IMG/VR virus record: IMGVR_UViG_3300037847_000211
Span: 1,330-30,422 of that record
From: a virus
Direction: 5' to 3' (one strand)
Length of the DNA: 29,093 nucleotides
Part shown: positions 2,335-29,093 of the stretch, in pieces
Layout: every line of letters starts with the position of its first letter
Numbering within the stretch: the stretch's first letter is position 1
Made by a program: the position numbers and the translations under genes
Notes under the pieces: model-generated
What the model was told of the DNA's origin: nothing
The model's input: only the letters and a program-made list of their open reading frames with translations
The model's database searches: none

Positions 2335-2532
2335 ATGATGTGGGTCTTAGTAGCAGCTTTTATTTTTAACGGACAACCTTCAGTGTTAAGTGATCAAAAG
2401 ATTTACTTTGAACTAGATAAGTGTCAGGATGCGGTAGTAAAACGTAGACAAATATTGGAGGCTACTAGACCCGACTATATGAAAGATGCTATATACTGGG
2501 TATGGTGTACACAGATACCACAGGAGGTGTGA
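2335..2532 (+). CDS. Small hypothetical protein with possible export signal, 65 residues
   Basis: The frame starts at tandem ATG codons (2335 and 2338) behind AGGA at 2323-2326. It begins with a short hydrophobic stretch (MMWVLVAAFIF), and the body contains two cysteines, C30 and C58, which could form a disulphide if the protein is exported. The tail YWVWCTQIP is aromatic. It resembles short cysteine-pair proteins often seen in phage early regions, but I cannot name a family. Its TGA overlaps the ATG of the endonuclease gene (TGATG), so the two are probably translationally coupled. Confidence 0.6.
   Translation: MMWVLVAAFIFNGQPSVLSDQKIYFELDKCQDAVVKRRQILEATRPDYMKDAIYWVWCTQIPQEV
2522..2527 (+). 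promoter_or_regulatory. Strong ribosome binding site for the endonuclease gene
   Basis: AGGAGG ends 4 bases before the ATG at 2532. It supports 2532 as the start rather than the in-frame ATG at 2502, which would add ten residues read from inside the upstream gene. Confidence 0.7.
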
Positions 2533-2969
2533 TGCAACTAGACTTGTTTGTTCTTGAGGAACAGTATAATATACTCGAAGGGGATGAGTTACAAACATGC
2601 AAGGTCTGTCAAAAAGAAAAACCCCTACACCTATTTCCAAAAACCATAACTAATAAGTCAGGTTATGACACTAGGTGTAAGGGCTGTATAAGAAAACAAA
2701 GTAAGTTAAGAGATGAACTAAGAAAAGTTCACGGACATAAGAAGACAGACTTCTGTGATTGCTGTGGTCAACGCTCACACAAAAGCCTAGTCATAGATCA
2801 TTGCCATGAAACACTAAAGTTCAGAGGTTGGTTATGCGAACAGTGTAATCACGGTATCGGTAAGCTTGGTGATAACTTAGAGGGTGTAAAGAAAGCAGTA
2901 GAGTATCTAGAGAAGTCTAATTATATTCGACCTACTGCATCCTCTGCTTCTTTGATGAACTCTGCGTAG
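2532..2969 (+). CDS. Recombination endonuclease VII-like (T4 gp49 family) junction resolvase
   Basis: The 145-residue protein matches the endonuclease VII fold. C75-x2-C78 and C102-x2-C105 form the structural zinc site (C23/C26/C58/C61 in T4). DHCH at 89-92 and N106 directly after the last cysteine correspond to the T4 catalytic D40, H41, H43 and N62. The enzyme cleaves branched DNA such as Holliday junctions, which in T4 is needed before packaging. The N-terminal 55 residues add a second cysteine set (C23xxC26 and C49xxC52) in front of the catalytic part, probably another zinc knuckle. The last 49 bases run into the end of the opposite-strand late block, so its C-terminal residues (about PTASSASLMNSA) overlap another gene in antisense. 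Family call firm; role in this phage inferred. Confidence 0.88.
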   Translation: MQLDLFVLEEQYNILEGDELQTCKVCQKEKPLHLFPKTITNKSGYDTRCKGCIRKQSKLRDELRKVHGHKKTDFCDCCGQRSHKSLVIDHCHETLKFRGWLCEQCNHGIGKLGDNLEGVKKAVEYLEKSNYIRPTASSASLMNSA

Positions 2970-13207: not shown

Positions 13208-13628
13208 AGCCAGACATATCCTCGTTTGTTACGTTGTGTTCTATAAAAGGCTCACCCTCTGCTACTTGAGAGTCGTAGTATTTAGAAACATCTTTCCATC
13301 TTGCGTAAGATTGTCTCATTTGTGTTACTTTTGTAACTGTGTTAGACTCTGATACTTCTGTGTAATTGTATCCATCATTAACTGAATATACATTATATAC
13401 AGTATCAGAATTACTTAAAGCTTTTATCTGCGTGTCGTTTAAAGGATCTCCAGAATCCCAGCCAACAACATTCCCAGTAGATAACGGAATAATCTTAGGG
13501 TTTATCATAGATTTTACAACACACCAAGTTGTTGGCTTATTATCTAAAACATCTTTCATATTTCTAACTGCATTCTCAACATCAGAAACAGTTTCGTATC
13601 TATTATCTGCGTAAATATATCTACTCAT
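13200..13628 (-). CDS. Hypothetical protein downstream of the glycine-rich adhesin, 142 residues
   Basis: The protein begins MSRYIYADNRYETVSDVENA and is rich in Tyr, Asn, Asp and Thr. No signal peptide, membrane span or known motif is visible. Its start overlaps the stop of the polyglycine adhesin gene by 1 base (TAATG) and its end overlaps the holin candidate. Tight coupling to an adhesin gene suggests a folding chaperone or a minor tail protein acting with it. That is only a positional inference. Confidence 0.5.
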   Translation of the reverse strand: MSRYIYADNRYETVSDVENAVRNMKDVLDNKPTTWCVVKSMINPKIIPLSTGNVVGWDSGDPLNDTQIKALSNSDTVYNVYSVNDGYNYTEVSESNTVTKVTQMRQSYARWKDVSKYYDSQVAEGEPFIEHNVTNEDMSGYV

Positions 13629-14602
13629 TATGTGCTTCCATAAATTGTACCGCTGTTAGACAAAGTGCGACTTGTTCCTGATATAGCTGCGCCACCAGAC
13701 CCACCAGCATCTCCTCTGTTTCCACTGCCTCCCGAAGCACCCCAGCCGCCGCCTCCACCGCCGCCTTCGTGAACACCAGAGTTAGTTCCAGCATTTCCAC
13801 CAGAACCACCTTGTAATCTACTGTCATTACCGCCATTATGTAGACCGCCAACGCCGGGTAAAATACGGCCACCACCACCGCCACCAACGTTACTTCCTTT
13901 AAAGCCGCCGCCACCACCAGCACCACCTCCGTAAGCACCTGTTTGTGATGAATTGTATTTGTTGTAGCCTCTTCCACCAGTACCATTTAATACGCCACCA
14001 GTACCACCGTTAGCATAACCGTTACCGCCAAGTCCTCCAGCACCGCCGCCAGCACCGCCGCCACCGCCAGAGTTGTAATCACCGGGGTCAGAGTGGTCAC
14101 GTCCATGTGCGCCTCCACCACCACCACCTGCAATATACGCCCCAGAGCTATTTGTAATAGTAACACCACTTGCTGTTACATTTATAGCAGGACCACCACT
14201 AGCAGCAGCTTGATAATACCTTCCTCCGACAGCACCACAGCCAATTATTTTTCCATCATTTATAACAGTGCATGATATATCTATAGTTAATGCAGCATGT
14301 GATGTACTATCAGACCAAACCCACATGTTTGAAGGTACACGTAAAGTACCACCAGATGAAATATAGTCTGATGCTGTGATACGTTTTAGTTGAACTTGTC
14401 CGTTAATTTGACTACCACCAGTGGGTAGTGATGTTTCAGCAGACTGACCATAATATTGTTGTATACTTTGACCTGCTCCATCTCCTACATCTATCAACGC
14501 ACGAATGTCAGGGTCATTCAAAGAACAGGTAGTACCACTAGTACCACCTACCTCTACGTGTAAATCATCTAAACTTATAGCGCCGCTACTTTGTAGGCCC
14601 AT
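13628..14602 (-). CDS. Polyglycine-rich tail adhesin with virion-anchor N-terminus
   Basis: The 324-residue protein has three parts. Residues 1-53 (SSGAISLDDLHVEVGG ... SIQQYYGQS) match the short repeat-type module that I know from the N-termini of phage tail and baseplate proteins. Residues 60-155 are beta-rich. Residues 159-304 are dominated by glycine runs (up to GGGGGGG) alternating with short variable loops, followed by a short closing strand. Glycine-rich motifs separated by variable loops are the design of the T-even/S16 gp38 adhesin, where polyglycine II helices pack in a sandwich and the loops bind the receptor. A receptor-binding role is therefore likely. It overlaps the S74 fibre gene by 17 bases and may sit at the tip of that fibre. 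The strong Gly bias also opens shadow frames on the same strand that are not genes. Confidence 0.72.
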   Translation of the reverse strand: MGLQSSGAISLDDLHVEVGGTSGTTCSLNDPDIRALIDVGDGAGQSIQQYYGQSAETSLPTGGSQINGQVQLKRITASDYISSGGTLRVPSNMWVWSDSTSHAALTIDISCTVINDGKIIGCGAVGGRYYQAAASGGPAINVTASGVTITNSSGAYIAGGGGGGAHGRDHSDPGDYNSGGGGGAGGGAGGLGGNGYANGGTGGVLNGTGGRGYNKYNSSQTGAYGGGAGGGGGFKGSNVGGGGGGRILPGVGGLHNGGNDSRLQGGSGGNAGTNSGVHEGGGGGGGWGASGGSGNRGDAGGSGGAAISGTSRTLSNSGTIYGST

Positions 14603-15406: not shown

Positions 15407-17932
15407 TTACTGCCTATCATGTTGTCTGTACTCAAGAACGGCTGTGTCAAGAGTAAAGGTTGGATTTGTTGAGTTGTCTGTAATACGCATTGCTACCGTT
15501 TTAAATGAACCTACTAAGTTTTGTTTATATATTTTATCTAACACACCACCATAGGTAACACCTGAACCACCATACACAGAAGTAGATGCACCGAATAAAC
15601 TAATACCACCACCTGCTGCTGCTGAAGAAACTGTTATAGCTGGAGGTTGTATAACACTTGGATCATTACCTGCATCAAAGTCTATCTTAAAGTTTACGTC
15701 TACATTCATAGTTCCCGTAGGATTTGCATACAGGGTTAGCTTGTACATAGTCTTACGTATCTGAGGATCTGTAATAGGCATAAATGGTGATTCATATATT
15801 GACTCTATTGCACTACCATCAAAAGAGTTACCTGAGTCCATTCTATAACAGAAGCCATCATCATTACCAAACATAATAGTCTCTGTTGCACCTGAGTACG
15901 TACTGTCTGCTACGTTTACCTTTAGTCCTTTAGTAGTAGACCAAGCTATACCGCTACCACCTTGAGCAATAAACTTAGTTGCTATCAATCCTGATGCACT
16001 AGCTGTTTGTACACTAGGTATATATGCAAACAACCTATACTGAGATTTGCCTCTAACTAGCACAGAACAAAACACATCTGTCTGTGATATAAACTCGTTT
16101 GCATCTTTATAGATAGGATCAGAAGCAATATCAAGAGCTAAGTCACCAATACGATCAGTAGCACTTAATAAACGTATACCATCAGGAGATAGGTATGCTA
16201 CGTCACCACCAAATTCCTGTATGCTGTCTGGGTTAATACAGCCTATTCTATCTGTTATAGGTTCTAGTTTAAAGTCAGATGAAGTACTACCTACAAGTTT
16301 TTTTATTGTGTCTGTAGTAAATATGATAAGTTGTTCACGAAAGCCTATCATACCTGTGACATCATGTCCAACGTTTATTGTACCAGCGCCATTACTTGTA
16401 GCAAAATCATCTACTGTGTTAGGTGCTGTAAAGAATATCTTACTACCTTTAGAGTAGAAAGCGTGGTTCTTAAATACTACAACATTCTCTGCACCTTGTA
16501 CATCTGAACTATTAGAAGAGGATAAAGATACTACAGTATTACCACTAGCATTATATATGATAGGATAGCTTTTACTATCTACAAATATTGTTTTATCTTC
16601 TTGTGTAAAATTAAAAGATGCAAACCTGCATTTTAATGTATTAGTAGAAGAGCTTGTACCTATGTGTGACCAAGTGGTTCCTGTACCATGAAAGTATAAT
16701 GTTTTATTTAATTGTGTAGAATGAAACGTACCAAATGTAAGAACAGTATTATCGGATATAGACTGGGCTGAGTCAAGTACAATACTATTTTGATTAGTTA
16801 GTGATGCTACTTTAACAGTACCAGATATGCCTGTGCCTGTAACAAACATACCAGCTTTTATATTAGTAACAAAACTAAGTACGGCATCATCTGCTAAAGA
16901 TACTGCTGTGTCTAGTATAATACTAGTTTGACTTGTTACAGTTTTTACTGTTACATCACCAGTTATACCAGTACCAGTTACAAGCATACCTTTGGTAATA
17001 GTTCCAAATGCTGCACCAGTACCAGCAACGCTAACACCTGTAACTGGACCTTCTGCTAAACCTGTACCTGCTATGGTGGCTCCTGTTATACCACCTGATC
17101 CATCTACTGTAGTTATTGTTATGGTTGCATCGTTAGCTGTAGTAGCCCCATTTAACTGTGTACCAACTACTTTAATTGTTTCACTAGCTGAATAACCTGA
17201 ACCTGCTGCAGTAATCGCTACAGTGTATGTAGTTCCTGTTTTAGTAATATTAAATGTAGCACTGCTACCAGAACCACCATAGCCAGACTGCGTTGGGTTT
17301 GTATATGTGACTGCACTAGAACCAACAGAAGTAACTGTGATAGTTGCGTTGTTTGCTGCTGTAGCACCACCTAAGTTTGCACCAAGTACTGTTACTGTTT
17401 CGTTAACCTTGAAGCCTGTACCTGCTGCATTTATTGCTGCTGTGTATGTACCATTTGTATTTGTTACATTAAAGGTAGCACTTGCACCAGCTAAAGAAGT
17501 AGCACCTGTTACTCCTGTAAAAGTTCTTACCCTATCCACAGCTACTGTGGTGTTATTATTAACAGCACTATTTACTATGGCAGTGGCAGTGTTGTTATCT
17601 AGTGATACTGCTGTAGAATTAGAAACTGCTCCGTTGACTGTAGATGTAGCTGTTTGATATTCTGTTATAGTAGCATTGTCCATCTTTCTAGCTGTGACAA
17701 CTCTACCAGAAGATACAACCTTCATAGCAAGAACTTCACCACCGCCGGGAACTTTTGTATTACTGAACTTGCTATAACCTTTTAACTTACTGTAACCACC
17801 TTCTCTATCAGACTCAAAGTTCTGTAAGATAGTAGCTGAACCTACAGCGTTAATACCCTGTTGTAGTGGAGTAAGGTTGGAGATCAACCCACCTTTGAAC
17901 TCCATAGGGAATGTAGTCCATTGTGTTGGCAT
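15407..17932 (-). CDS. Tail nozzle (tail tubular B / gp12-like) with repeat insertion, 841 residues
   Basis: Residues 1-97 (FKGGLISNLTPLQQG ... ATILQNFESDREGGYSKLKGY) and 403-841 look like the beta-propeller tail nozzle of podoviruses (T7 gp12, P22 gp10 class). Signs are the N-terminal NFESDREGGYSKLKGYS, the alternating strands around LSPDGIRLLSATDRIG, and DNGDDGFCYRMDSG-like blade endings (here FGNDDGFCYRMDSG). The gene directly follows the adaptor gene with a 1-base overlap, the same order as T7 genes 11 and 12. Residues about 98-402 are an extra Thr/Gly/Val-rich segment made of two duplicated beta units that do not look like the core. They probably form decoration domains on the outside of the tail. 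Nozzle identity is by pattern and context; fold prediction would settle it. Confidence 0.75.
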   Translation of the reverse strand: MPTQWTTFPMEFKGGLISNLTPLQQGINAVGSATILQNFESDREGGYSKLKGYSKFSNTKVPGGGEVLAMKVVSSGRVVTARKMDNATITEYQTATSTVNGAVSNSTAVSLDNNTATAIVNSAVNNNTTVAVDRVRTFTGVTGATSLAGASATFNVTNTNGTYTAAINAAGTGFKVNETVTVLGANLGGATAANNATITVTSVGSSAVTYTNPTQSGYGGSGSSATFNITKTGTTYTVAITAAGSGYSASETIKVVGTQLNGATTANDATITITTVDGSGGITGATIAGTGLAEGPVTGVSVAGTGAAFGTITKGMLVTGTGITGDVTVKTVTSQTSIILDTAVSLADDAVLSFVTNIKAGMFVTGTGISGTVKVASLTNQNSIVLDSAQSISDNTVLTFGTFHSTQLNKTLYFHGTGTTWSHIGTSSSTNTLKCRFASFNFTQEDKTIFVDSKSYPIIYNASGNTVVSLSSSNSSDVQGAENVVVFKNHAFYSKGSKIFFTAPNTVDDFATSNGAGTINVGHDVTGMIGFREQLIIFTTDTIKKLVGSTSSDFKLEPITDRIGCINPDSIQEFGGDVAYLSPDGIRLLSATDRIGDLALDIASDPIYKDANEFISQTDVFCSVLVRGKSQYRLFAYIPSVQTASASGLIATKFIAQGGSGIAWSTTKGLKVNVADSTYSGATETIMFGNDDGFCYRMDSGNSFDGSAIESIYESPFMPITDPQIRKTMYKLTLYANPTGTMNVDVNFKIDFDAGNDPSVIQPPAITVSSAAAGGGISLFGASTSVYGGSGVTYGGVLDKIYKQNLVGSFKTVAMRITDNSTNPTFTLDTAVLEYRQHDRQ
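16727..16852 (-). repeat. Repeat B, copy 2, in tail nozzle gene
   Basis: Encodes residues 361-402, beginning GMFVTGTGISGTVKV and ending DNTVLTFGT. The core nozzle sequence resumes directly after it. Confidence 0.75.
16862..16990 (-). repeat. Repeat B, copy 1, in tail nozzle gene
   Basis: Encodes residues 315-357, beginning GMLVTGTGITGDVTV and ending DDAVLSF plus a short tail. It pairs with copy 2 at a period of 46 residues. A weaker related stretch (TAVSLDNNTATAIV) lies near residues 107-120. Confidence 0.75.
17105..17266 (-). repeat. Repeat A, copy 2, in tail nozzle gene
   Basis: Encodes residues 223-276, beginning SSATFNITKTGTTYTVAI and containing VGTQLNGATTANDATITI. It is clearly homologous to copy 1 at protein level but diverged at DNA level. 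Confidence 0.75.
17324..17485 (-). repeat. Repeat A, copy 1, in tail nozzle gene
   Basis: Encodes residues 150-203, beginning ASATFNVTNTNGTYTAAI and containing LGANLGGATAANNATITV. It pairs with copy 2 at a period of 73 residues. Confidence 0.75.
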
Positions 17933-18621
17933 TAGAAACTAACTCTTCTGTCTCTTATATATGGTGTTCTATTTATATTTATTACACGTAAGTCTTTTAT
18001 TTGTTTTTCAAACTTTTCTAAAGCTACACTTGCAGCTTGTGAGTCACCTCTAAACTGATAGGCATAATACATAGCACCATCTACTATAGCAAACCTATAC
18101 TGCTGTGGTAGCGATGGCACATCTAAAGGGTTCTCTAAATCGTAACCCATTGAGTAATATTCATATACTATTGTGTAAGCCTTGTCAGGCACAGGGTGAC
18201 ATATTAGCTCCCTACTAGGTGTACGTACAATAAATTCAGGCACACCACGTATATCTGCACTTGTATTAAACTCATCATCTGCGTACTTCTCCAACCATTC
18301 CTCATATACCATTGACTTTAGTTTTACTGTTCCTGTACCAAGGCTGTCATCTCGCTTTATTCTAAACGAGTTCATGTTGATTGTCTTAGCATCTGTAGGA
18401 TAATAATACTTCATAGACCCTGCAGCTAGTACAAGATCAGACTGTACATGGTTCCAAGGCCACTCAAATTCTTCTTGTTGAATATGTCTTATTGCAGAGT
18501 TAACAGCATCTTTAGCTATACTATAGTAACCAGTAGCTGCTGCAAAGTTTGTAGAAGTTAATGCTACTTCATTTAACCTGTGGTTTATGTCGTTAACTAA
18601 GCCAAGAAAATCATATGCCAT
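17932..18621 (-). CDS. Head-tail adaptor (tail tubular A / gp11-like), 229 residues
   Basis: The protein starts MAYDFLGLVNDINHRLNEV and continues with a helical N-terminal part, AVNSAIRHIQQEEFEWPWN, then PSRELICHPVPDKAYTIVYEYY and a C-terminal helix rich in Lys and Glu. This plan, helix bundle plus beta insert with the WPWN and PVPD landmarks, is what I know from podovirus adaptor proteins that ring the portal and receive the nozzle (T7 gp11, P22 gp4 class). Length fits (T7 gp11 is 196 residues). It is followed, with a 1-base overlap, by the nozzle gene, in the T7 order. Start at ATG 18621 directly abuts the stop of the upstream gene. Confidence 0.78.
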   Translation of the reverse strand: MAYDFLGLVNDINHRLNEVALTSTNFAAATGYYSIAKDAVNSAIRHIQQEEFEWPWNHVQSDLVLAAGSMKYYYPTDAKTINMNSFRIKRDDSLGTGTVKLKSMVYEEWLEKYADDEFNTSADIRGVPEFIVRTPSRELICHPVPDKAYTIVYEYYSMGYDLENPLDVPSLPQQYRFAIVDGAMYYAYQFRGDSQAASVALEKFEKQIKDLRVININRTPYIRDRRVSF

Positions 18622-18939
18622 TTATCTATTCCTAATCGGTAATGTTACAGAACGTTCATACGTTAATCCCTGAGTCGTATTGATACGGCATGTAATATTA
18701 TACCTTACATTATCTGTGCCACCGCCAAAACGTGCAGTAGCTACGTTACCAGAAACAGTACCTGCTATAAACTGTAAGTTATTTACAATTTGTGCAGTTG
18801 ATACTTGTGTCTTTGTTCCATCTGCAGCATCAATAAAAAATGTAGCCGATGCTATAGAGTCAGATCCTAGAAACCTAGACCAGTCAATACTAAAGTCTGC
18901 TGTTTCGTCTGGATCTTTTTCAGGCCATTTGTAAGACAT
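18622..18939 (-). CDS. Small conserved phage neck/tail-type protein (KDPDE..DWS type), 105 residues
   Basis: The protein begins MSYKWPEKDPDETADFSIDWSRFLG and continues as an all-beta domain with a final segment TLPIRNR. I recognise a widespread phage family of about 100-110 residues with KDPDE and DW near the N-terminus and an Ig-like remainder ending in basic residues, usually located among head-tail joining genes. Exact role is not established to my knowledge. Its position one gene before the adaptor fits a neck or decoration function. Confidence 0.65.
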   Translation of the reverse strand: MSYKWPEKDPDETADFSIDWSRFLGSDSIASATFFIDAADGTKTQVSTAQIVNNLQFIAGTVSGNVATARFGGGTDNVRYNITCRINTTQGLTYERSVTLPIRNR

Positions 18940-18948
18940 GTGTTATCC

Positions 18949-20310
18949 TTAGTTTAATATGTATACTACGTTATCTGTTCTAACTGGGCGAATAACTACG
19001 GTTCTGTTTTCAGCAGGTATGATAACTGTTCTATTACCTATAGTAGGTGCAATTATTGTTACTGTTCTATATCTACTGTAGTTAGCTGCAAAGTCATCAA
19101 ACGGAAAGAGTACACCAATAGGGTCATCTAGGTTTTGAGCAAATGTAGCATTTATATCAGGTAACGTAAAGTTAGCTATGCCTGTTATACTAGGTACTAC
19201 TTTGTCTATTACAGCAGCTACAGAAGTAGGTGTATGTGTAGCTTGTCCTTGTGCTGTTAGTCCTATAGGTACACCACTAGTAGTAACAGTATTACCCATA
19301 GCGTTTCCATGTACAGTACAATAGTATCTTAGTCCTATTGCTGGTGCAGATAAAGGTACTGTAAATGTTACGCTTGCACCAGCCTGACCAGGTGTTCCTG
19401 TACTTGTCACACCAGTTGTGTAACTATTATTACCACTCTTAAATGCTAGTGGATGTCCAGCTACAGATGAATCACTAAGATCAAATGTATATGTTGTTCC
19501 TCTTACAAGTTGTATCGTTGGCGCAACGTTACCGTTCAGAACAAACTTGTTACCTCCAGCGTCTGCAACAAGTACAGTAAAAGTAGTGGTGCTGTCTACT
19601 GTAGTGATGGTATTGCCCATACCATTACCATGTGCAGTACAATAGTATCTAACTGGTAGTGTACCTGAACTAGCAAGCACTAACGTTACTGTAGCCCCTG
19701 ATGATCCTGCTGTTCCTGAAGTGGTAACTCCTGTAGTGTAAGCATTACCAGATGCATCTTTAAATCTAAATGGGTGTCCACTGTTAGTAGCATCACTTAC
19801 ATCAAAGACGTATGTTAATCCTTTTGTTAGTGTTAACTGAGCAGCTTCTACACCATCTATGTAAAACTTGTTACCGCTTCCACTATTAGCTACAGTTACT
19901 GTGTAGTTGTTTCCTGTAGGCTGAACGTTATCACCGTAGACTGCACTAGAAATAGCAGTTTGTGATGGTAGGTTTGTATTGGCTATACCCTCTATACTTG
20001 GTACGTTAGCTGTGAATGCTGCAGTGTTTGCAGGGAGCGTAAAGTTTGCCTTACCTGATAGTGTCAGTGCAGCTATGCTTGTGGTGCTTGATACGTTAGC
20101 AGTAGTTATATTTGCTTTTCCGTCAATGTCAAGCGTAGCGTTGGTTAGTGTAGCAGAAACTCCTGTTAATGCTGGAAGATTTACACCTCCTGAAAACTGA
20201 GGAGAGTTTAGCGCAGAAGCTGCAGATACATTAGCAAGATCAACACCTATGGTGTACTTGGTAAGTTCTGCTGAGAACGGTGTCTCTGCTACTGCTGCAA
20301 AGCCAAACAT
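18949..20310 (-). CDS. Virion protein with two tandem cupredoxin-like domains, 453 residues
   Basis: Residues 1-125 contain loosely repeated beta segments (GKANFTLPANTAAFT and GIANTNLPSQTA, echoed by GIANFTLPDINATFA at 379-391). Residues about 134-238 and 243-345 are two homologous domains, each with the landmarks of a cupredoxin: GHPFRF or GHPLAF on one strand and YYCTxHGNxMG near the end. The putative copper ligands are H179, C224, H227, M231 and H286, C331, H334, M338. The H-to-C distance is 45 in both, and C-x2-H-x3-M resembles plastocyanin-type C-x2-H-x4-M loops. The C-terminus is a beta repeat (RTVTIIAP ... NRTVIIPAENRTVVIRP). Similar GHPF ... YYCxxH domains occur, as I recall, in cyanophage structural proteins. 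It lies among neck and fibre genes, so a virion location is likely; actual copper binding is untested. Confidence 0.7.
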   Translation of the reverse strand: MFGFAAVAETPFSAELTKYTIGVDLANVSAASALNSPQFSGGVNLPALTGVSATLTNATLDIDGKANITTANVSSTTSIAALTLSGKANFTLPANTAAFTANVPSIEGIANTNLPSQTAISSAVYGDNVQPTGNNYTVTVANSGSGNKFYIDGVEAAQLTLTKGLTYVFDVSDATNSGHPFRFKDASGNAYTTGVTTSGTAGSSGATVTLVLASSGTLPVRYYCTAHGNGMGNTITTVDSTTTFTVLVADAGGNKFVLNGNVAPTIQLVRGTTYTFDLSDSSVAGHPLAFKSGNNSYTTGVTSTGTPGQAGASVTFTVPLSAPAIGLRYYCTVHGNAMGNTVTTSGVPIGLTAQGQATHTPTSVAAVIDKVVPSITGIANFTLPDINATFAQNLDDPIGVLFPFDDFAANYSRYRTVTIIAPTIGNRTVIIPAENRTVVIRPVRTDNVVYILN

Positions 20311-20483
20311 TAGTCAGCCTCTGCTATGGTGTTACCCTCTGCCACCCATGCTTGTATGGCTTTGTAATCGGCATTGCTTGGGTTTATTGGAACACACATG
20401 GTAATACCATCTGAAACTATTTCTATACCCTGATTACCTTCTACGCTTGGATGAGTGTAGTATTTTGCTGATTTAATATTCAT
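20310..20483 (-). CDS. Short XkdW-like tail-associated protein, 57 residues
   Basis: A 57-codon frame runs from ATG 20483 to TAA at 20310-20312 and fills the gap between the lectin-like fibre gene and the cupredoxin-like gene. Its stop overlaps the next ATG by 1 base (TAATG), and its start lies 2 bases after the upstream stop. The protein begins MNIKSAKYYTHPSVEGNQGI and ends ADYKAIQAWVAEGNTIAEAD. That ending is like the C-terminus of small XkdW-type phage tail proteins (YxAIxxWVAEGNTIxEAD), usually found beside tail fibre genes and possibly acting in fibre assembly. Family link is from memory; coding status is well supported. Confidence 0.72.
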   Translation of the reverse strand: MNIKSAKYYTHPSVEGNQGIEIVSDGITMCVPINPSNADYKAIQAWVAEGNTIAEAD

Positions 20484-20485
20484 AC

Positions 20486-21568
20486 TTATAACTCCGCTGA
20501 TGCTTCGGCTTGCGCCCTAAGAAAAACATTTGCGGCAGTACCCGAACTGTCATTAGCTCTATAAAAAAAGCAGCGCTCGTTTGTAATAAAAGTAGCATTT
20601 CCATTGCCATCAGTACCGTCTGCTGCAAGTTTACCTGACGTGTTAGCATTAGTTGTACTATAAACTGTAATAGTAGGAGCGGTTCTCATTATAGTTGGAA
20701 AATCCCAAGAACCTGCACCTGCATAAGCATGTCCTGCACTTAGAGAAGTAGCTACACAACCAGATGAAGTTGCTGTTCCTGTGCCTGTTCCATACTGATA
20801 AGTTCGGCAAAAGTACCTTTGGCAAGCCTTAAATTCTTGAGCAAATGTTTTATGCTCGAACGGAGTACTTTGCGGCCCAACTTCCAACTGACAGCCAGTG
20901 ATCTGCCATGTTGCTCCATTAGTTGCTACAACATTAGTAGCACCTGTTGGCCCACGTTTAAAAGTTGTACCCCAACTACCTGCTGTACCTTGTTGACTAC
21001 TACCAGCACCTAAAGTCCAGTAGACCCATAAACCAGCCCCATTGGTTCTCTCCCATGATCCATCTGTTACTCCGTCAACAGTTATTGTTTTATGCTCCCA
21101 AGTATTTGCTGACGAAATTGTGTAAGTCCAAGCGTAAAATCTATTCCCAGCGTTATTAGAGTAAGCTCCTCCAAATGTACCAGTTAAAGAACTTTTTACC
21201 CAAAAAGAAAGTGTAAATTTTTTTGCAGTAGATAATCCTAAGTCAAATGTAGTTACACTGTAACCTTCTAGTGGAGTATTTATCTGATAATAATCATTAG
21301 CGCCAACAGTTGTGGCGGCGGCTGAAGTTACCTTTAAAGATTTATAATATCCAGAAGGAGCGTCTGTTACTTGTTGAACAGAGTACTTACTTCCAGAACT
21401 CATCCTAGCCAACCATCTATCAAGGGTGTAAGTTCGATCAGCCGATGGTGTAGTAGCAGAACCGAGATTTCTTTGGTCTATAAACATAGAACCATTAGTT
21501 ATGGCATTGCGTCCAGATAGCTGTCCTACGCTAGGAAGATTGTCTGCAAGTTTACGTGCGTTGCTCAT
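20486..21568 (-). CDS. Lectin-like tail fibre / receptor-binding protein, 360 residues
   Basis: The N-terminus MSNARKLADNLPSVGQLSGR leads into NAITNGSMFIDQRN and YTLDRW, a signature of phage fibre proteins with a carbohydrate-binding jelly-roll domain. Later landmarks are FTLSFWVKSSLTGTF, QITGCQLEVGPQSTPFEHK and EFKACQRYF, where the EVG..ATPFE-type motif marks the end of this domain. The last 100 residues (from about 260) form a separate beta-rich tip. It probably binds surface polysaccharide. It is one of several fibre genes in a row, separated from the previous one by 9 bases. Confidence 0.78.
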   Translation of the reverse strand: MSNARKLADNLPSVGQLSGRNAITNGSMFIDQRNLGSATTPSADRTYTLDRWLARMSSGSKYSVQQVTDAPSGYYKSLKVTSAAATTVGANDYYQINTPLEGYSVTTFDLGLSTAKKFTLSFWVKSSLTGTFGGAYSNNAGNRFYAWTYTISSANTWEHKTITVDGVTDGSWERTNGAGLWVYWTLGAGSSQQGTAGSWGTTFKRGPTGATNVVATNGATWQITGCQLEVGPQSTPFEHKTFAQEFKACQRYFCRTYQYGTGTGTATSSGCVATSLSAGHAYAGAGSWDFPTIMRTAPTITVYSTTNANTSGKLAADGTDGNGNATFITNERCFFYRANDSSGTAANVFLRAQAEASAEL

Positions 21569-21577
21569 ATGTTCCTC

Positions 21578-22534
21578 CTACGCTACCAAAAAGCCTTGAA
21601 AAAAACTCCAATGCTGCCAAGTATATACACCACTATCGCCATAGTTTTTATGTAGCTCCACATAATCATTTGCTGATAAGTAGTGCATCACCTCTATATG
21701 AAAGCTTTCGTGGTTACTACTGCTATGTTTATAAAACCGTTGCTCTTTAATAATTGTACTACCATTTACTTTAAATTGTAAATCGAGCCTAGTGCCAACA
21801 GAGTGAGTTAAACCTTGGCAAAAAAACAAATACCAACCGTTGACAGGACAAGTAAAACGTGAGTTTGCTGTTGAGTAATGTGAACCATTTTGTGAAGCAG
21901 AACCAAAAGTAACTTTACCATTAGATGTATTGCTACTATCTTGACCCCAAGCTTTAAAGGCTGGCTGTAGAGGCATTGTCACATTGCCTGATGCGTCTAT
22001 CTTTATCCTAGTTGTGCCGTTTGATAAGGCGTGGTTTGTACCACTGTGTATATTAACTGTATCTGCACCACCTATGTACATAGACTCAGAACCAGATCCA
22101 TCACTATAAGAAGTAATGTAGCCTGTGTTTGTACCACCAGCTTTAAGTTGTATACCACCGTAATTAGCACTGTTAACGGCTATTGTTTCTGCAGTAGACG
22201 TATTAATAGCTAATCCACCTGTCATAGTATCACCAGTGGTGTTGACATATCTCGTATCTGCTGCTGCTTGGTTGAGTGCATCACCAACGCTAAACGTATT
22301 GTATGCAACAACTTCTATCTCATCACCTGCTGCTGCACCTGATGTAAGTGTTACTGCTGATCCGTTGCTTGTGTAGTCTACTGTTTCATCTAAAAGCAAG
22401 CCATTCATAAACACCTGTATAAATCCCTGAGTGTGGGATATAGTAAAGGCTGTCTGTCCAGCAGTAGCTGTAAACGTAGTACTGCTGTAATTGCCAGAAC
22501 CTATGAGGTTAGCTACATCTCTTGCTCTTGTCAT
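21578..22534 (-). CDS. Tail fibre with anchor module and C1q-like head, 318 residues
   Basis: Residues about 19-82 are a repeated anchor module (FTATAGQTAFTIS ... VFMNGLLLDETVDYT ... GDEIEVVAYNTFSV). DTRYVNTTGDTMTGGL (93-108) follows, then a stem ending TRIKIDASGNVTMP. Residues about 190-318 resemble a C1q/TNF-like trimeric head (FTCPVNGWYLFFCQG ... NDYVELHK ... FFQGFLVA). It probably forms a trimeric receptor-binding fibre. The same anchor module occurs in the proteins at 22547-23674 and 25976-26443, and the stem plus head is similar to the protein at 26448-27212. Confidence 0.75.
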   Translation of the reverse strand: MTRARDVANLIGSGNYSSTTFTATAGQTAFTISHTQGFIQVFMNGLLLDETVDYTSNGSAVTLTSGAAAGDEIEVVAYNTFSVGDALNQAAADTRYVNTTGDTMTGGLAINTSTAETIAVNSANYGGIQLKAGGTNTGYITSYSDGSGSESMYIGGADTVNIHSGTNHALSNGTTRIKIDASGNVTMPLQPAFKAWGQDSSNTSNGKVTFGSASQNGSHYSTANSRFTCPVNGWYLFFCQGLTHSVGTRLDLQFKVNGSTIIKEQRFYKHSSSNHESFHIEVMHYLSANDYVELHKNYGDSGVYTWQHWSFFQGFLVA

Positions 22535-24349: not shown

Positions 24350-24880
24350 CTAAGTTGATACGAAATGTGCTGTCATTTGTGTCCTTTTATTACCACCAAA
24401 AAACCTTTCATTACCATTAGTGTCATAGACATAACCATACATTTGTATGTAATCTGTTGAACCATTTAGATATACGAGTGTGGTAAATGAAACAGCTATA
24501 TCATCACCATAGCTTTCATCTTGAAACCAAAAGAGATGATTTTTATAAAGCGAACCATTTTTATATAAACTTGGCCCCAATGACCTAACAGTTCCATCTC
24601 CACCATTTAAAGTACAACTTACACTGTAATACCCTGCTGTTTGTGGTGTCCACTTTTCGTTGGCACTATCCCATGCGTTTGTATTGTCAAAATCTACTGT
24701 GCCATAAGTAGAGAAATCTACTAAATGATACTGATTACTTGCTAAGTTTACTGCTGTATTAGACGTTAATGACACACTTAAAACAGGAACCTTTGGAGCT
24801 ACAAAACCACTGCTATCTATAGTTAACCCAGTAGTACCGCCACTATTCTGTATCGTATCAACTTTAAGAATAGAACTCAT
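24350..24880 (-). CDS. C1q-like short tail fibre protein, 176 residues
   Basis: The N-terminus MSSILKVDTIQNSGGTTGLT is a short attachment motif shared with the next gene upstream (MSILKVDTIN). Residues about 35-176 form a beta-rich C1q/TNF-like domain (WTPQTAGYYSVSCTLNGG ... LYKNGSLYKN ... TTLVYLNGSTDYIQMYGYV). It probably trimerises and binds a receptor. Its ATG overlaps the TGA of the upstream gene (ATGA), so the pair is translationally coupled. Confidence 0.7.
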   Translation of the reverse strand: MSSILKVDTIQNSGGTTGLTIDSSGFVAPKVPVLSVSLTSNTAVNLASNQYHLVDFSTYGTVDFDNTNAWDSANEKWTPQTAGYYSVSCTLNGGDGTVRSLGPSLYKNGSLYKNHLFWFQDESYGDDIAVSFTTLVYLNGSTDYIQMYGYVYDTNGNERFFGGNKRTQMTAHFVST

Positions 24881-26447: not shown

Positions 26448-27212
26448 TTATCCTAGTAATGTAGCAAAAAATTGAAGCTCAGTATTAGATTTTATTTTTA
26501 AAGTCCCTCCAGCGCCATTAGCACTAAAAACAAAATAATCGTTTGCTGCTAGGTTTAATAACCATGTTTGAGAATGTTGATAATAAGTTGCTACAGGTGT
26601 CGTAAAATCTGCAAAATAATTACCTTTAGAATTAAGATTTGCAGTATTGCTTCCGTTAATTCTTGGACACAAATATGTCCAAACTGTAGCAGAGGTACAT
26701 TGGAACTCGCCACTAAATCCTACTAGGTAAACTCCTGCAACTGGCGCAGTAAATCTGTAGTTGCTGGTGTTGTAATTATTACCTCTATCATAATTTTCAA
26801 CATTTAATTGCACATCTTGCCAAGATGAGTTTTGAGGTAGTGTTCTATCGGTAGAGGTTCCCCAAGAAGCGGCTGGCTGATTAGGCTTTGTCACACGACC
26901 TGATGCATCTATTCTCATACGCTCACTTGATCCAGTAGCAAAACGTATATCTTCTGCTCTAAAACCCATTGGCTTTAACGCACTACCAGCCGTATTCTGT
27001 GCTTGAAAAGCTAGGTTTCCATCACCTACTTCACCTATTTGATCATTAACTGAAAGTTTAGCATTAGTTGCTGTTGAAACACTTAAATCACCAGTAATAT
27101 TTAACGTACCAGTCATTGTATCACCAGCAGTGTTTACATACCTTGTATCACTTGTAGTTTGTGTTTGATACAGAGTAGAAGAGCCAGTTGCTAAATCTTT
27201 AGACTTACCCAT
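26448..27212 (-). CDS. Fibre stem and C1q-like head protein without anchor module, 254 residues
   Basis: The protein begins MGKSKDLATGSSTLYQTQTT, then DTRYVNTAGDTMTGTLNITG, the stem linker also found in the 318-residue fibre. MRIDASGRVTKPNQPA precedes a C1q-like head (YRFTAPVAGVYLVGFSGEFQ ... LLNLAANDYFVFSANG ... LQFFATLLG). The N-terminal anchor module of its paralogues is absent. It overlaps the upstream gene by 1 base (TAATG). A trimeric receptor-binding head is the likely product. Confidence 0.72.
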   Translation of the reverse strand: MGKSKDLATGSSTLYQTQTTSDTRYVNTAGDTMTGTLNITGDLSVSTATNAKLSVNDQIGEVGDGNLAFQAQNTAGSALKPMGFRAEDIRFATGSSERMRIDASGRVTKPNQPAASWGTSTDRTLPQNSSWQDVQLNVENYDRGNNYNTSNYRFTAPVAGVYLVGFSGEFQCTSATVWTYLCPRINGSNTANLNSKGNYFADFTTPVATYYQHSQTWLLNLAANDYFVFSANGAGGTLKIKSNTELQFFATLLG

Positions 27213-28573: not shown

Positions 28574-29093
28574 TTAAGCAGCGTTGTATCGTGCTGTGAC
28601 CAATGCTTGTGGGCGTAAGATTTTACGTCCGTATAGGTGCATACCACGTACGATGTCTGCAAATGAATCTGGATCTCTGTAGTTTTCTACTTTGTTGATC
28701 TGTTCTGCAGTTGCAACCGCTTCTTCCTGACCTGCTAGGATGATACCGAAGTTGTCATCTTGTGCAGTTGTGCCAGAAGTTCCTGGTCCTGTACCGTCTG
28801 TTGGTAGGTTGTTTGAAACGTGTACACGGAAGCCGTGGATGTTTCCTGCAACCAAGCCATTTTGTAGACCTGATCCACCGAAGTCTGAATTTAGAAGACG
28901 TGAGTCCTCGTCCTTCAACATTTCCATGAAGATTGGGTCAACAACCAAGTAACGTCCACGTGAATCAACAGTTTGCGTATCTAATTGACGTGCCATACGT
29001 GCAATAAGTTGCAATGGTGATGCAGTTGTAGTTCCTCTTGATTGTGCGCCCGGCATTCTAGGTGCTAGAGGAATAGAGTCACCAGTTGTAGAT
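28574..29093 (-). CDS. Major capsid protein, C-terminal part
   Basis: The frame stays open to the right edge of the window: residues STTGDSIPLAPR precede the first visible Met at 29056, so that Met is internal and the true start lies outside. The visible 172 residues or so include GRYLVVDPIFMEMLKDEDSR, GNIHGFRVHVSNNLP and the end YRDPDSFADIVRGMHLYGRK followed by ILRPQALVTARYNAA. Such endings (GRKxLRPxALVxARYN) and the GFxVxxSNNLP element are typical of HK97-fold phage major capsid proteins. It would form the icosahedral shell. The conserved small protein downstream and the intervening hairpin fit a capsid gene. Family assignment is by pattern and context. Confidence 0.72.
   Translation of the reverse strand, partial: STTGDSIPLAPRMPGAQSRGTTTASPLQLIARMARQLDTQTVDSRGRYLVVDPIFMEMLKDEDSRLLNSDFGGSGLQNGLVAGNIHGFRVHVSNNLPTDGTGPGTSGTTAQDDNFGIILAGQEEAVATAEQINKVENYRDPDSFADIVRGMHLYGRKILRPQALVTARYNAA

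Follow-up and report, generated by a model that had tools for sequence, protein, structure and literature searches.

Tandem cupredoxin-like domains with putative copper sites in a phage tail-region protein

The window analyzed here is a stretch of 29,093 nucleotides, positions 1,330 to 30,422 of the IMG/VR record IMGVR_UViG_3300037847_000211, a virus contig of 30,422 bases. On its minus strand, an open reading frame (ORF) with an ATG start (18949–20310) encodes a tail-region protein of 453 amino acids (aa) with two tandem cupredoxin-like domains, each with the complete ligand set of a type-1 copper site. The finding is real and the structural reading holds; the designation as a copper protein is putative. 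Models and ligand conservation make it quite likely that the domains bind a metal, and the metal is probably copper rather than another one. New here is a cupredoxin-type site in phage tail proteins, the cupredoxin fold and the site being of an already known kind. A literature search of titles and abstract starts, with most subscription journals and all preprints outside its reach, found no description of a cupredoxin, plastocyanin-like or blue copper domain in phage virions. The sole match for cyanophage and cupredoxin concerns Borgs, in the part of the paper available (PMC9605863).

Fold and metal-site residues of the two domains

Domain 1 comprises residues 135–240 (19591–19908), supported by structural match (Z 8.0) and repeat alignment, and domain 2 residues 241–348 (19267–19590), supported by the model of residues 240–349; both are on the minus strand, as are all codons given below. 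An initial annotation had described the two as homologous, and they share 54 of 103 aligned residues, with an alignment score of 271 (highest of 500 shuffles, 62). Chance is excluded as the source of the two-domain repeat. The ligand positions listed by that annotation proved exact when the protein was read again. The putative metal ligands are His179 (19774–19776), Cys224 (19639–19641) and His227 (19630–19632) in domain 1, with Met231 (19618–19620) as putative axial ligand, and His286 (19453–19455), Cys331 (19318–19320) and His334 (19309–19311) in domain 2, with Met338 (19297–19299) as putative axial ligand. As had also been claimed, the His-to-Cys distance is 45 and the loop C-x2-H-x3-M in both. 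The two Cys are the only ones in the whole protein, one per domain, and the fifth His (359) and the start Met fall outside both ligand sets.

The AlphaFold2 model of domain 2 (residues 240–349, 36 aligned copies) reached a predicted local distance difference test score (pLDDT) of 95.5 and a predicted template modelling score of 0.87. The full-length model was confident in the two domains only, with low confidence in both the N-terminal and the C-terminal part. VIA-align was run on Foldseek's best 1000 Protein Data Bank (PDB) chains and listed 50 rows, beyond which other families may also match. All 50 rows for domain 2 were cupredoxin-fold copper enzymes (Z 8.9–10.5, 98–103 residues), namely three Hyphomicrobium Cu-nitrite reductase entries and 47 two-domain laccases (Z 8.9–9.6). 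The best listed match was the N-terminal domain of the Hyphomicrobium three-domain nitrite reductase (Z 10.5, 2.2 Å, 99 residues). The same reductase was the best row for the full-length model (Z 9.8), and its N-terminal domain matched domain 1 (residues 133–240) with Z 8.0. Structure prediction, proposed earlier as a check of the fold, thus gives a domain 2 that matches cupredoxin-fold copper enzymes over its whole length.

The predicted strands agree between the two models: His286 lies just before strand 288–292, Cys331 is the last residue of strand 327–331, His334 precedes strand 335–345 and Met338 is near the start of the latter. In the models, this order, with a His before strand 4, the Cys ending strand 7 and a His and Met after it, is the plastocyanin arrangement, and it would put the four residues at the positions of type-1 copper ligands.

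For the full-length model, the raw Foldseek output also contained titin-like immunoglobulin (Ig) tandems, as may be expected from two consecutive beta-sandwiches. Ig domains are absent from the 50 VIA-align rows obtained with domain 2 alone. The intradomain disulfide of an Ig-like phage decoration domain was also considered, and the single Cys per domain makes it impossible.

Ligand conservation in close and distant relatives

Relatives covering all or nearly all of the protein are found on many IMG/VR contigs, at 49–92% identity (32 were taken into the alignment). From at least 596 relatives we kept 80 loci, which together with the window make a close set of 81. Its 99 distinct full-length copies of the domain have the first His in 99 of 99 and the Cys, second His and Met in 98 of 98, one copy ending at a contig end. 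A second selection from the same 81 loci was picked by the landmarks Y-x-F-D/N-x-S and G..G..GA, and all four ligands are kept in 96 of its 96 nucleotide-distinct copies, while the codons switch synonymously (first His CAC 58, CAT 38; Cys TGT 76, TGC 20; second His CAT 50, CAC 46). In a set of 36 copies chosen for diversity (33–87% identity to domain 2), eight columns never vary: one Y, one F, two G and the four ligands. Free variation of Cys and His among homologues, named by the initial annotation as an argument against a metal site, is therefore not seen in the close loci.

Beyond these relatives, a permissive tblastn search (E 1) with one domain, whose sequence was approximate at its start, matched 244 of 50,697 phage records, with names beginning Synechococcus, Cyanophage, Prochlorococcus, Pelagibacter, Methylophilales, Marine, phage, Phage or uncultured. 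The version of the domain found in gp9, the “baseplate wedge tail fiber connector”, matched 335 of the 50,697 at E 0.01, in records named Synechococcus, Cyanophage, Prochlorococcus, Marine and, once, Actinomycetia. The family is called marine from such record names, and not from the habitat of each record. The same kind of domain is present in gp9 of cultured cyanophages, and other copies are in proteins annotated as tail fibre, gp7 baseplate wedge initiator, virion structural or hypothetical protein. PHROGs places the relatives under tail fibre, baseplate wedge, virion structural or unknown, with the domain unnamed. The connector, tail fibre and baseplate copies bear out the initial annotation, which had mentioned cyanophage structural proteins with such domains. 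A search of 72,556 plasmid records gave no match to domain 2 at E 0.01. The predicted structures in BFVD gave the same phage picture, plus weaker matches in Marseillevirus LCMAC201 and Pithovirus LCPAC304 (A0A481YXP1, A0A481YVH3 and A0A481Z7Q7; template modelling score about 0.72–0.75, 18–24% identity). The GTDB genomes, searched with the cyanophage gp9 domain, gave two loci. One is a cyanophage-like gp9 on NZVD01000020.1, filed under Rhodopirellula, with a domain 74% identical to the Syn33 copy; this contig in a planctomycete metagenome-assembled genome is probably a mis-binned phage contig. The other was taken as a false match, its ORF looking like a desaturase by eye.

The domain occurs in phages of hosts as unlike as cyanobacteria, Pelagibacter and Methylophilales, and this favours a function within the particle, for example in loop rigidity, stability or general adhesion, over the binding of one receptor. 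This bears on a copper “Trojan horse”, in which the bound metal would be offered to copper- or metal-uptake receptors of the host. The proposal has an analogue for iron in marine tail fibres with HxH motifs, as far as the accessible part of the source goes (PMC11705849). No result obtained here connects the domain with uptake, and the host range speaks against a single receptor, so that we regard this explanation as quite improbable.

For the distant copies, 27 phage records (8 + 19) were chosen from the family matches and searched whole with a 36-row profile. All 8 and all 19 matched, as they had been chosen to, at 25 places (E 0.1) and 63 places (E 0.01), respectively. From the 86 stretches read, 83 copies remained after leaving out matches that started after model position 35, had E >0.02 or repeated the same copy; one row was dropped as non-homologous (L185), and a second row of L266 as part of a counted copy. 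The site was complete as far as first His and Cys-x2-His in 46 of the 83, both parts were missing in 31, and six had only a His near position 1, one of them (L253) also keeping the Cys, with the second His absent. The second copy of L194 and L275 were counted as site-less, their His lying outside the ligand position. Cys-x2-His without the first His occurred in none of the 83. When the 37 site-less or partial copies were read again in stretches of 111–230 residues, none had a Cys-x2-His of its own; those in the L258 and L194 stretches belong to the next copy. The ligands are present or absent as a group, as expected if they form a single metal site, and the 31 site-less copies mean that the fold does not need the metal. 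Cys and His thus do not vary freely in the distant copies either, Cys-x2-His never standing without the first His, although 31 of these copies have lost both.

The distant copies also bear on a metal-free, Ig-like spacer whose conserved residues serve the fold. Such a spacer would account for the site-less copies, which still match the family, and for the Ig tandems in the raw Foldseek list. Against it stand the missing disulfide, the lack of Ig domains among the rows for domain 2, and the all-or-none pattern, as residues needed by the fold would not disappear together as a set. We consider it very unlikely.

The Met is present in 44 of the 46 site-bearing distant copies (43 by script, L266 by reading) and absent from L243 and L248. 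By script, the spacing from second His to Met was x2 in 39 of these 46, x3 in three and x4 in one. The Met matters for a further alternative, a metal other than copper, most likely zinc, gained in the cytoplasm during assembly and acting as a purely structural staple. Zinc is more available than copper in the cytoplasm, where virions assemble, and the conservation indicates metal-type ligands without saying which metal. However, two His, a Cys and a Met are what a type-1 copper site uses in this fold, and the Met, kept by nearly all site-bearing copies, would be superfluous in a zinc staple. This alternative appears unlikely to us.

Two observations concern the architecture of the cyanophage proteins. 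In Cyanophage S-RIM4, a 1380-aa protein encoded after gp9 (L298, 1261–5400, plus strand) has a YHYH domain (PF14240, 65.6 bits) near one site-bearing and one site-less cupredoxin-like copy, and the same pairing was seen by eye in L244 and L250. In L193, L238, L251, L253, L266 and L262 there is an apparent long insert between the region of the first His and that of the Cys; most of this cyanophage sub-group lack Cys-x2-His, and L266 keeps it.

Gene neighbourhood and modular occurrence

The cupredoxin gene lies in a block of structural genes on the minus strand. Immediately downstream are a Gp77-type fiber-tail adaptor (18622–18939; PF23148, 70.5 bits, cut-off 27) and an SU10-type adaptor protein (17932–18621; PF24175, 66 bits, cut-off 27), followed by a tail protein and a Peptidase_S74 protein, recognized by Pfam. 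Upstream, a 57-aa ORF (20310–20483) ends with a stop codon that shares one base with the start codon of the cupredoxin gene, so that translation of the two could be coupled, and next comes a tail fibre-like protein (20486–21568; phrog_4492, E 8e-55). A major head protein match was found at 28574–29056. Gene position and the annotation of relatives point to a location of the cupredoxin protein in the tail or virion; for virion proteomics of HMO-2011-type phages, the literature search gave nothing usable.

The tail protein beyond the adaptors had its best isolate match in Roseobacter phage CRP-207 (58.8% identity over 63% of the query), and its listed matches include CRP-207, CRP-603, CRP-345, HTVC033P and HMO-2011, which we take to form one phage type. 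Judged by this protein, the window would come from an HMO-2011-type marine podovirus.

Outside its two domains the cupredoxin protein has a repetitive N-terminal region (residues 1–134, 19909–20310, minus strand; pLDDT <50), with a best Pfam match of E 0.086 and no PHROG match at E 1, and a C-terminal part (residues 349–453, 18952–19266, minus strand) ending in RTV/NRTV repeats. The latter resembles the C-terminal end of CRP-207 gp50 (local alignment score 90, maximum of 500 shuffles 60), a 287-aa protein in the same gene position, before gp49 and gp48. These two genes, of 318 and 690 bases, correspond to window positions 18622–18939 and 17932–18621. Both gp50 and the window protein start with MFGF and carry A-x-TP; a wider N-terminal similarity was rejected, its score of 83 lying below the shuffle maximum of 84 though the first residues agree. 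Gp50 has no Cys, no cupredoxin domain and no match to a copper family of Pfam. Its ChuX_HutX match (22.7 bits, cut-off 25) is probably due to chance in a repetitive sequence.

Among the window-type relatives, a single domain is present in L041, L043, L049, L056 and L057, L043 being outside the 32-sequence alignment and called from a match length and ends equal to those of L041. Because the syntenic gp50 is without the domains and some relatives have only one, the cupredoxin domains are, judged by sequence comparison, an optional module.

Several other genes of the window were recorded. The tail fibre-like protein at 21578–22534 (minus strand) has a C1q domain (PF00386, 32.3 bits), and the PHROG it matches, 15750, is also matched by the ORFs at 24350–24880 (weakly) and 26448–27212. 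Another tail-region protein (13628–14602, minus strand) is very glycine-rich in its C-terminal half, with GGGGG runs. A phage ribonucleotide reductase (295–2205; phrog_367, E 2e-180) is encoded on the plus strand, opposite to the structural block. Beside the reductase gene, the minus-strand stretch 2157–2312 showed a weak match to the N-terminal strands of the cupredoxin family profile (14 bits; E 2.5e-4 among window frames), either by chance or as a remnant. A 155-aa ORF with CxxC pairs (2502–2969, plus strand) looks by eye like an HNH-type endonuclease.

Possible role and comparison with known metal proteins

Taken as a whole, we lean toward an accessory tail protein with copper-binding cupredoxin domains of structural and adhesive function. 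The protein would sit on the fibre side of the tail, its two cupredoxin-fold domains built into a repetitive scaffold. The two His, Cys and Met of cupredoxins bind Cu(I) and Cu(II) tightly, and with this set complete each domain would most likely bind one copper ion. The copper would be taken up after lysis or in sea water, and not in the reducing cytoplasm in which the virion is assembled. Once bound, it would lock the loops at one end of the sandwich, and this exposed end could offer the tail a rigid contact surface, with a role that is structural and adhesive and not catalytic. This role is the tentative part of the proposal. It nevertheless ranks first, ahead of zinc, a redox trigger, the copper “Trojan horse” and the absence of any metal, in that order.

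The redox trigger assumes that the copper transfers electrons or switches between Cu(I) and Cu(II), sensing the host surface or triggering ejection. In its favour, the domain matched best by fold comes from a redox enzyme, and in cupredoxins a complete set with Met tunes the potential. On the other side, no other copper-type domain was found in the virus record (no Copper-bind match at E 1; other redox partners were not searched), and the only other window frame found below E 0.01 with the family profile is the stretch at 2157–2312, of 52 codons and ligand-free. The 31 related copies without the site also speak against it, and we find a redox role distinctly unlikely.

Known copper families are approached by sequence through the wider family. 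When 16 family members were scanned, Copper-bind (E 0.03) and Cupredoxin_1 (E 0.034) were each matched by one and PF25489 by three. Eight cyanophage-type copies were scanned, of which four matched Copper-bind at E ≤0.5 and two matched nothing. The best of them reached E 4.3e-4 and 21.1 bits with Copper-bind (cut-off 21.2) and E 2.7e-4 and 21.3 bits with Cupredoxin_1 (cut-off 27). Separate cyanophage genes over the Copper-bind cut-off were found in 13 of 21 records searched. For HHalign, 13 plastocyanin-type genes that Copper-bind had identified in the same phages were compared with a profile of 79 site-bearing copies. The alignment keeps the four ligands in register, at a score of 30.4 (64% probability; E 6.5e-5 for one template), and a cyanophage-type subset of 21 copies scored 38.7. 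As controls for the 79-copy and the 21-copy profile, 60 column-shuffled plastocyanin alignments gave maxima of 19.5 and 20.7, and reversed ones 15.3 and 10.8.

Several points weigh against copper-binding domains of this kind. The 47 laccase rows align with the first laccase domain (residues ~44–185), and their type-1 copper belongs to the second, whose axial Met298 the row titles name, so that these matches support the fold and not the site. Strict conservation in the close set is not special to the ligands, being shared by many other columns, and the conservation count was favoured by search seeds of which some contained the ligands. For the all-or-none pattern, a Fisher test gives p 4e-17, a value that ignores kinship. 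On the best site-state tree, built without the ligand columns and with the two window copies added, there are at least eight changes of state, of which only two are forced by well-supported branches. Independent pairs number three, below what a test needs, and the count of independent gains and losses is uncertain. The site is absent from 31 of the 83 cyanophage-type copies. For the window protein itself, Pfam and NCBIfam gave no match at E 0.1. Only site-bearing copies went into the wider HHalign profile, and the window-type profile A3, which omits all L081–L089 copies, copies below 98 residues and near-duplicates, gave no signal against the plastocyanins (3.2%, score 19.0, about the shuffled-column level of the wider profiles, on which the shuffles were run). 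The window loop C-x2-H-x3-M is, as the initial annotation had observed, one residue shorter than the C-x2-H-x4-M of plastocyanin, and a Pro follows the first His in the window domains where cyanophage plastocyanins have Asn. Finally, the cytoplasm, in which virions assemble, is reducing and copper-poor, and loading would therefore have to follow lysis.

Sequence-only PDB searches with the window protein, with A3 and with the profile A2 (which omits the PSS2 copy L086, without first His, Cys or second His, and the second copy of L088) were discarded. Their best match was an artificial SUMO entry, no believable relative appeared, and antibody variable domains (YYC..H) ranked beside plastocyanins.

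If the tail domains bind copper, some virus particles may carry it. A complete type-1 copper set in the tails of phages infecting some of the commonest bacteria of the ocean would add copper to the virion, and would raise the question of when a particle from a reducing cytoplasm becomes loaded. The domain also gives a handle on cyanophage tail proteins, such as the gp9 connector and baseplate proteins, in which it is nameless in the annotations examined. A broader scenario, in which copper-loaded cupredoxins on the tails of many abundant marine phages take part in infection, their redox state or metal load controlling adsorption or ejection, seems rather unlikely; if true, virus particles would count among the copper ligands of the ocean and form a class of cuproproteins outside the cell.

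The metal sites so far described in phage tail fibres are of the HxH iron type of T4 gp37, including alterophage R22Y, according to the accessible part of PMC11705849. They also place metal residues in a phage tail, with an ecological question in common, and differ from the window protein, which has no H-x-H among its five His (179, 227, 286, 334, 359). The At5g54830-like family PF25489 was matched by the three family members mentioned at E ≤1 (best 6.4e-4) and by two of eight cyanophage-type copies at E ≤0.5 (best 4.7e-4). The best relative stays at 20.6 bits against a cut-off of 27, the window protein has no match, and the context differs, PF25489 being a plant protein by its name. No paper with both words, Knickkopf and plastocyanin, came up in the literature search. 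The C-terminal domain of the Cu-nitrite reductase 9cck has a C-x2-H-x2-M loop, like cyanophage gp9 and 39 of the 46 site-bearing copies, whereas the window copies have x3; its phmmer E of 0.63 is by itself no evidence of homology. Amicyanin presumably shares this loop.

By structure, the nearest known domain is the N-terminal one of Hyphomicrobium denitrificans nitrite reductase (2dv6, 6tfo, 6tfd), with model positions 1–110 aligned to chain positions 25–135. It presumably holds a type-1 copper, and differs in its low identity (20%) and in being part of an enzyme and not of a virion. With plastocyanin and PF00127, the window domains share the order and register of His, Cys, His and Met and the C-x2-H spacing. 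The window protein has no PF00127 match at E 0.1, nor the whole virus record at E 1, and because the cut-off of this family is not reached, we call the domain cupredoxin-like and not a member of PF00127. Plastocyanin is a small carrier, whereas the window copy is a domain of a tail protein.

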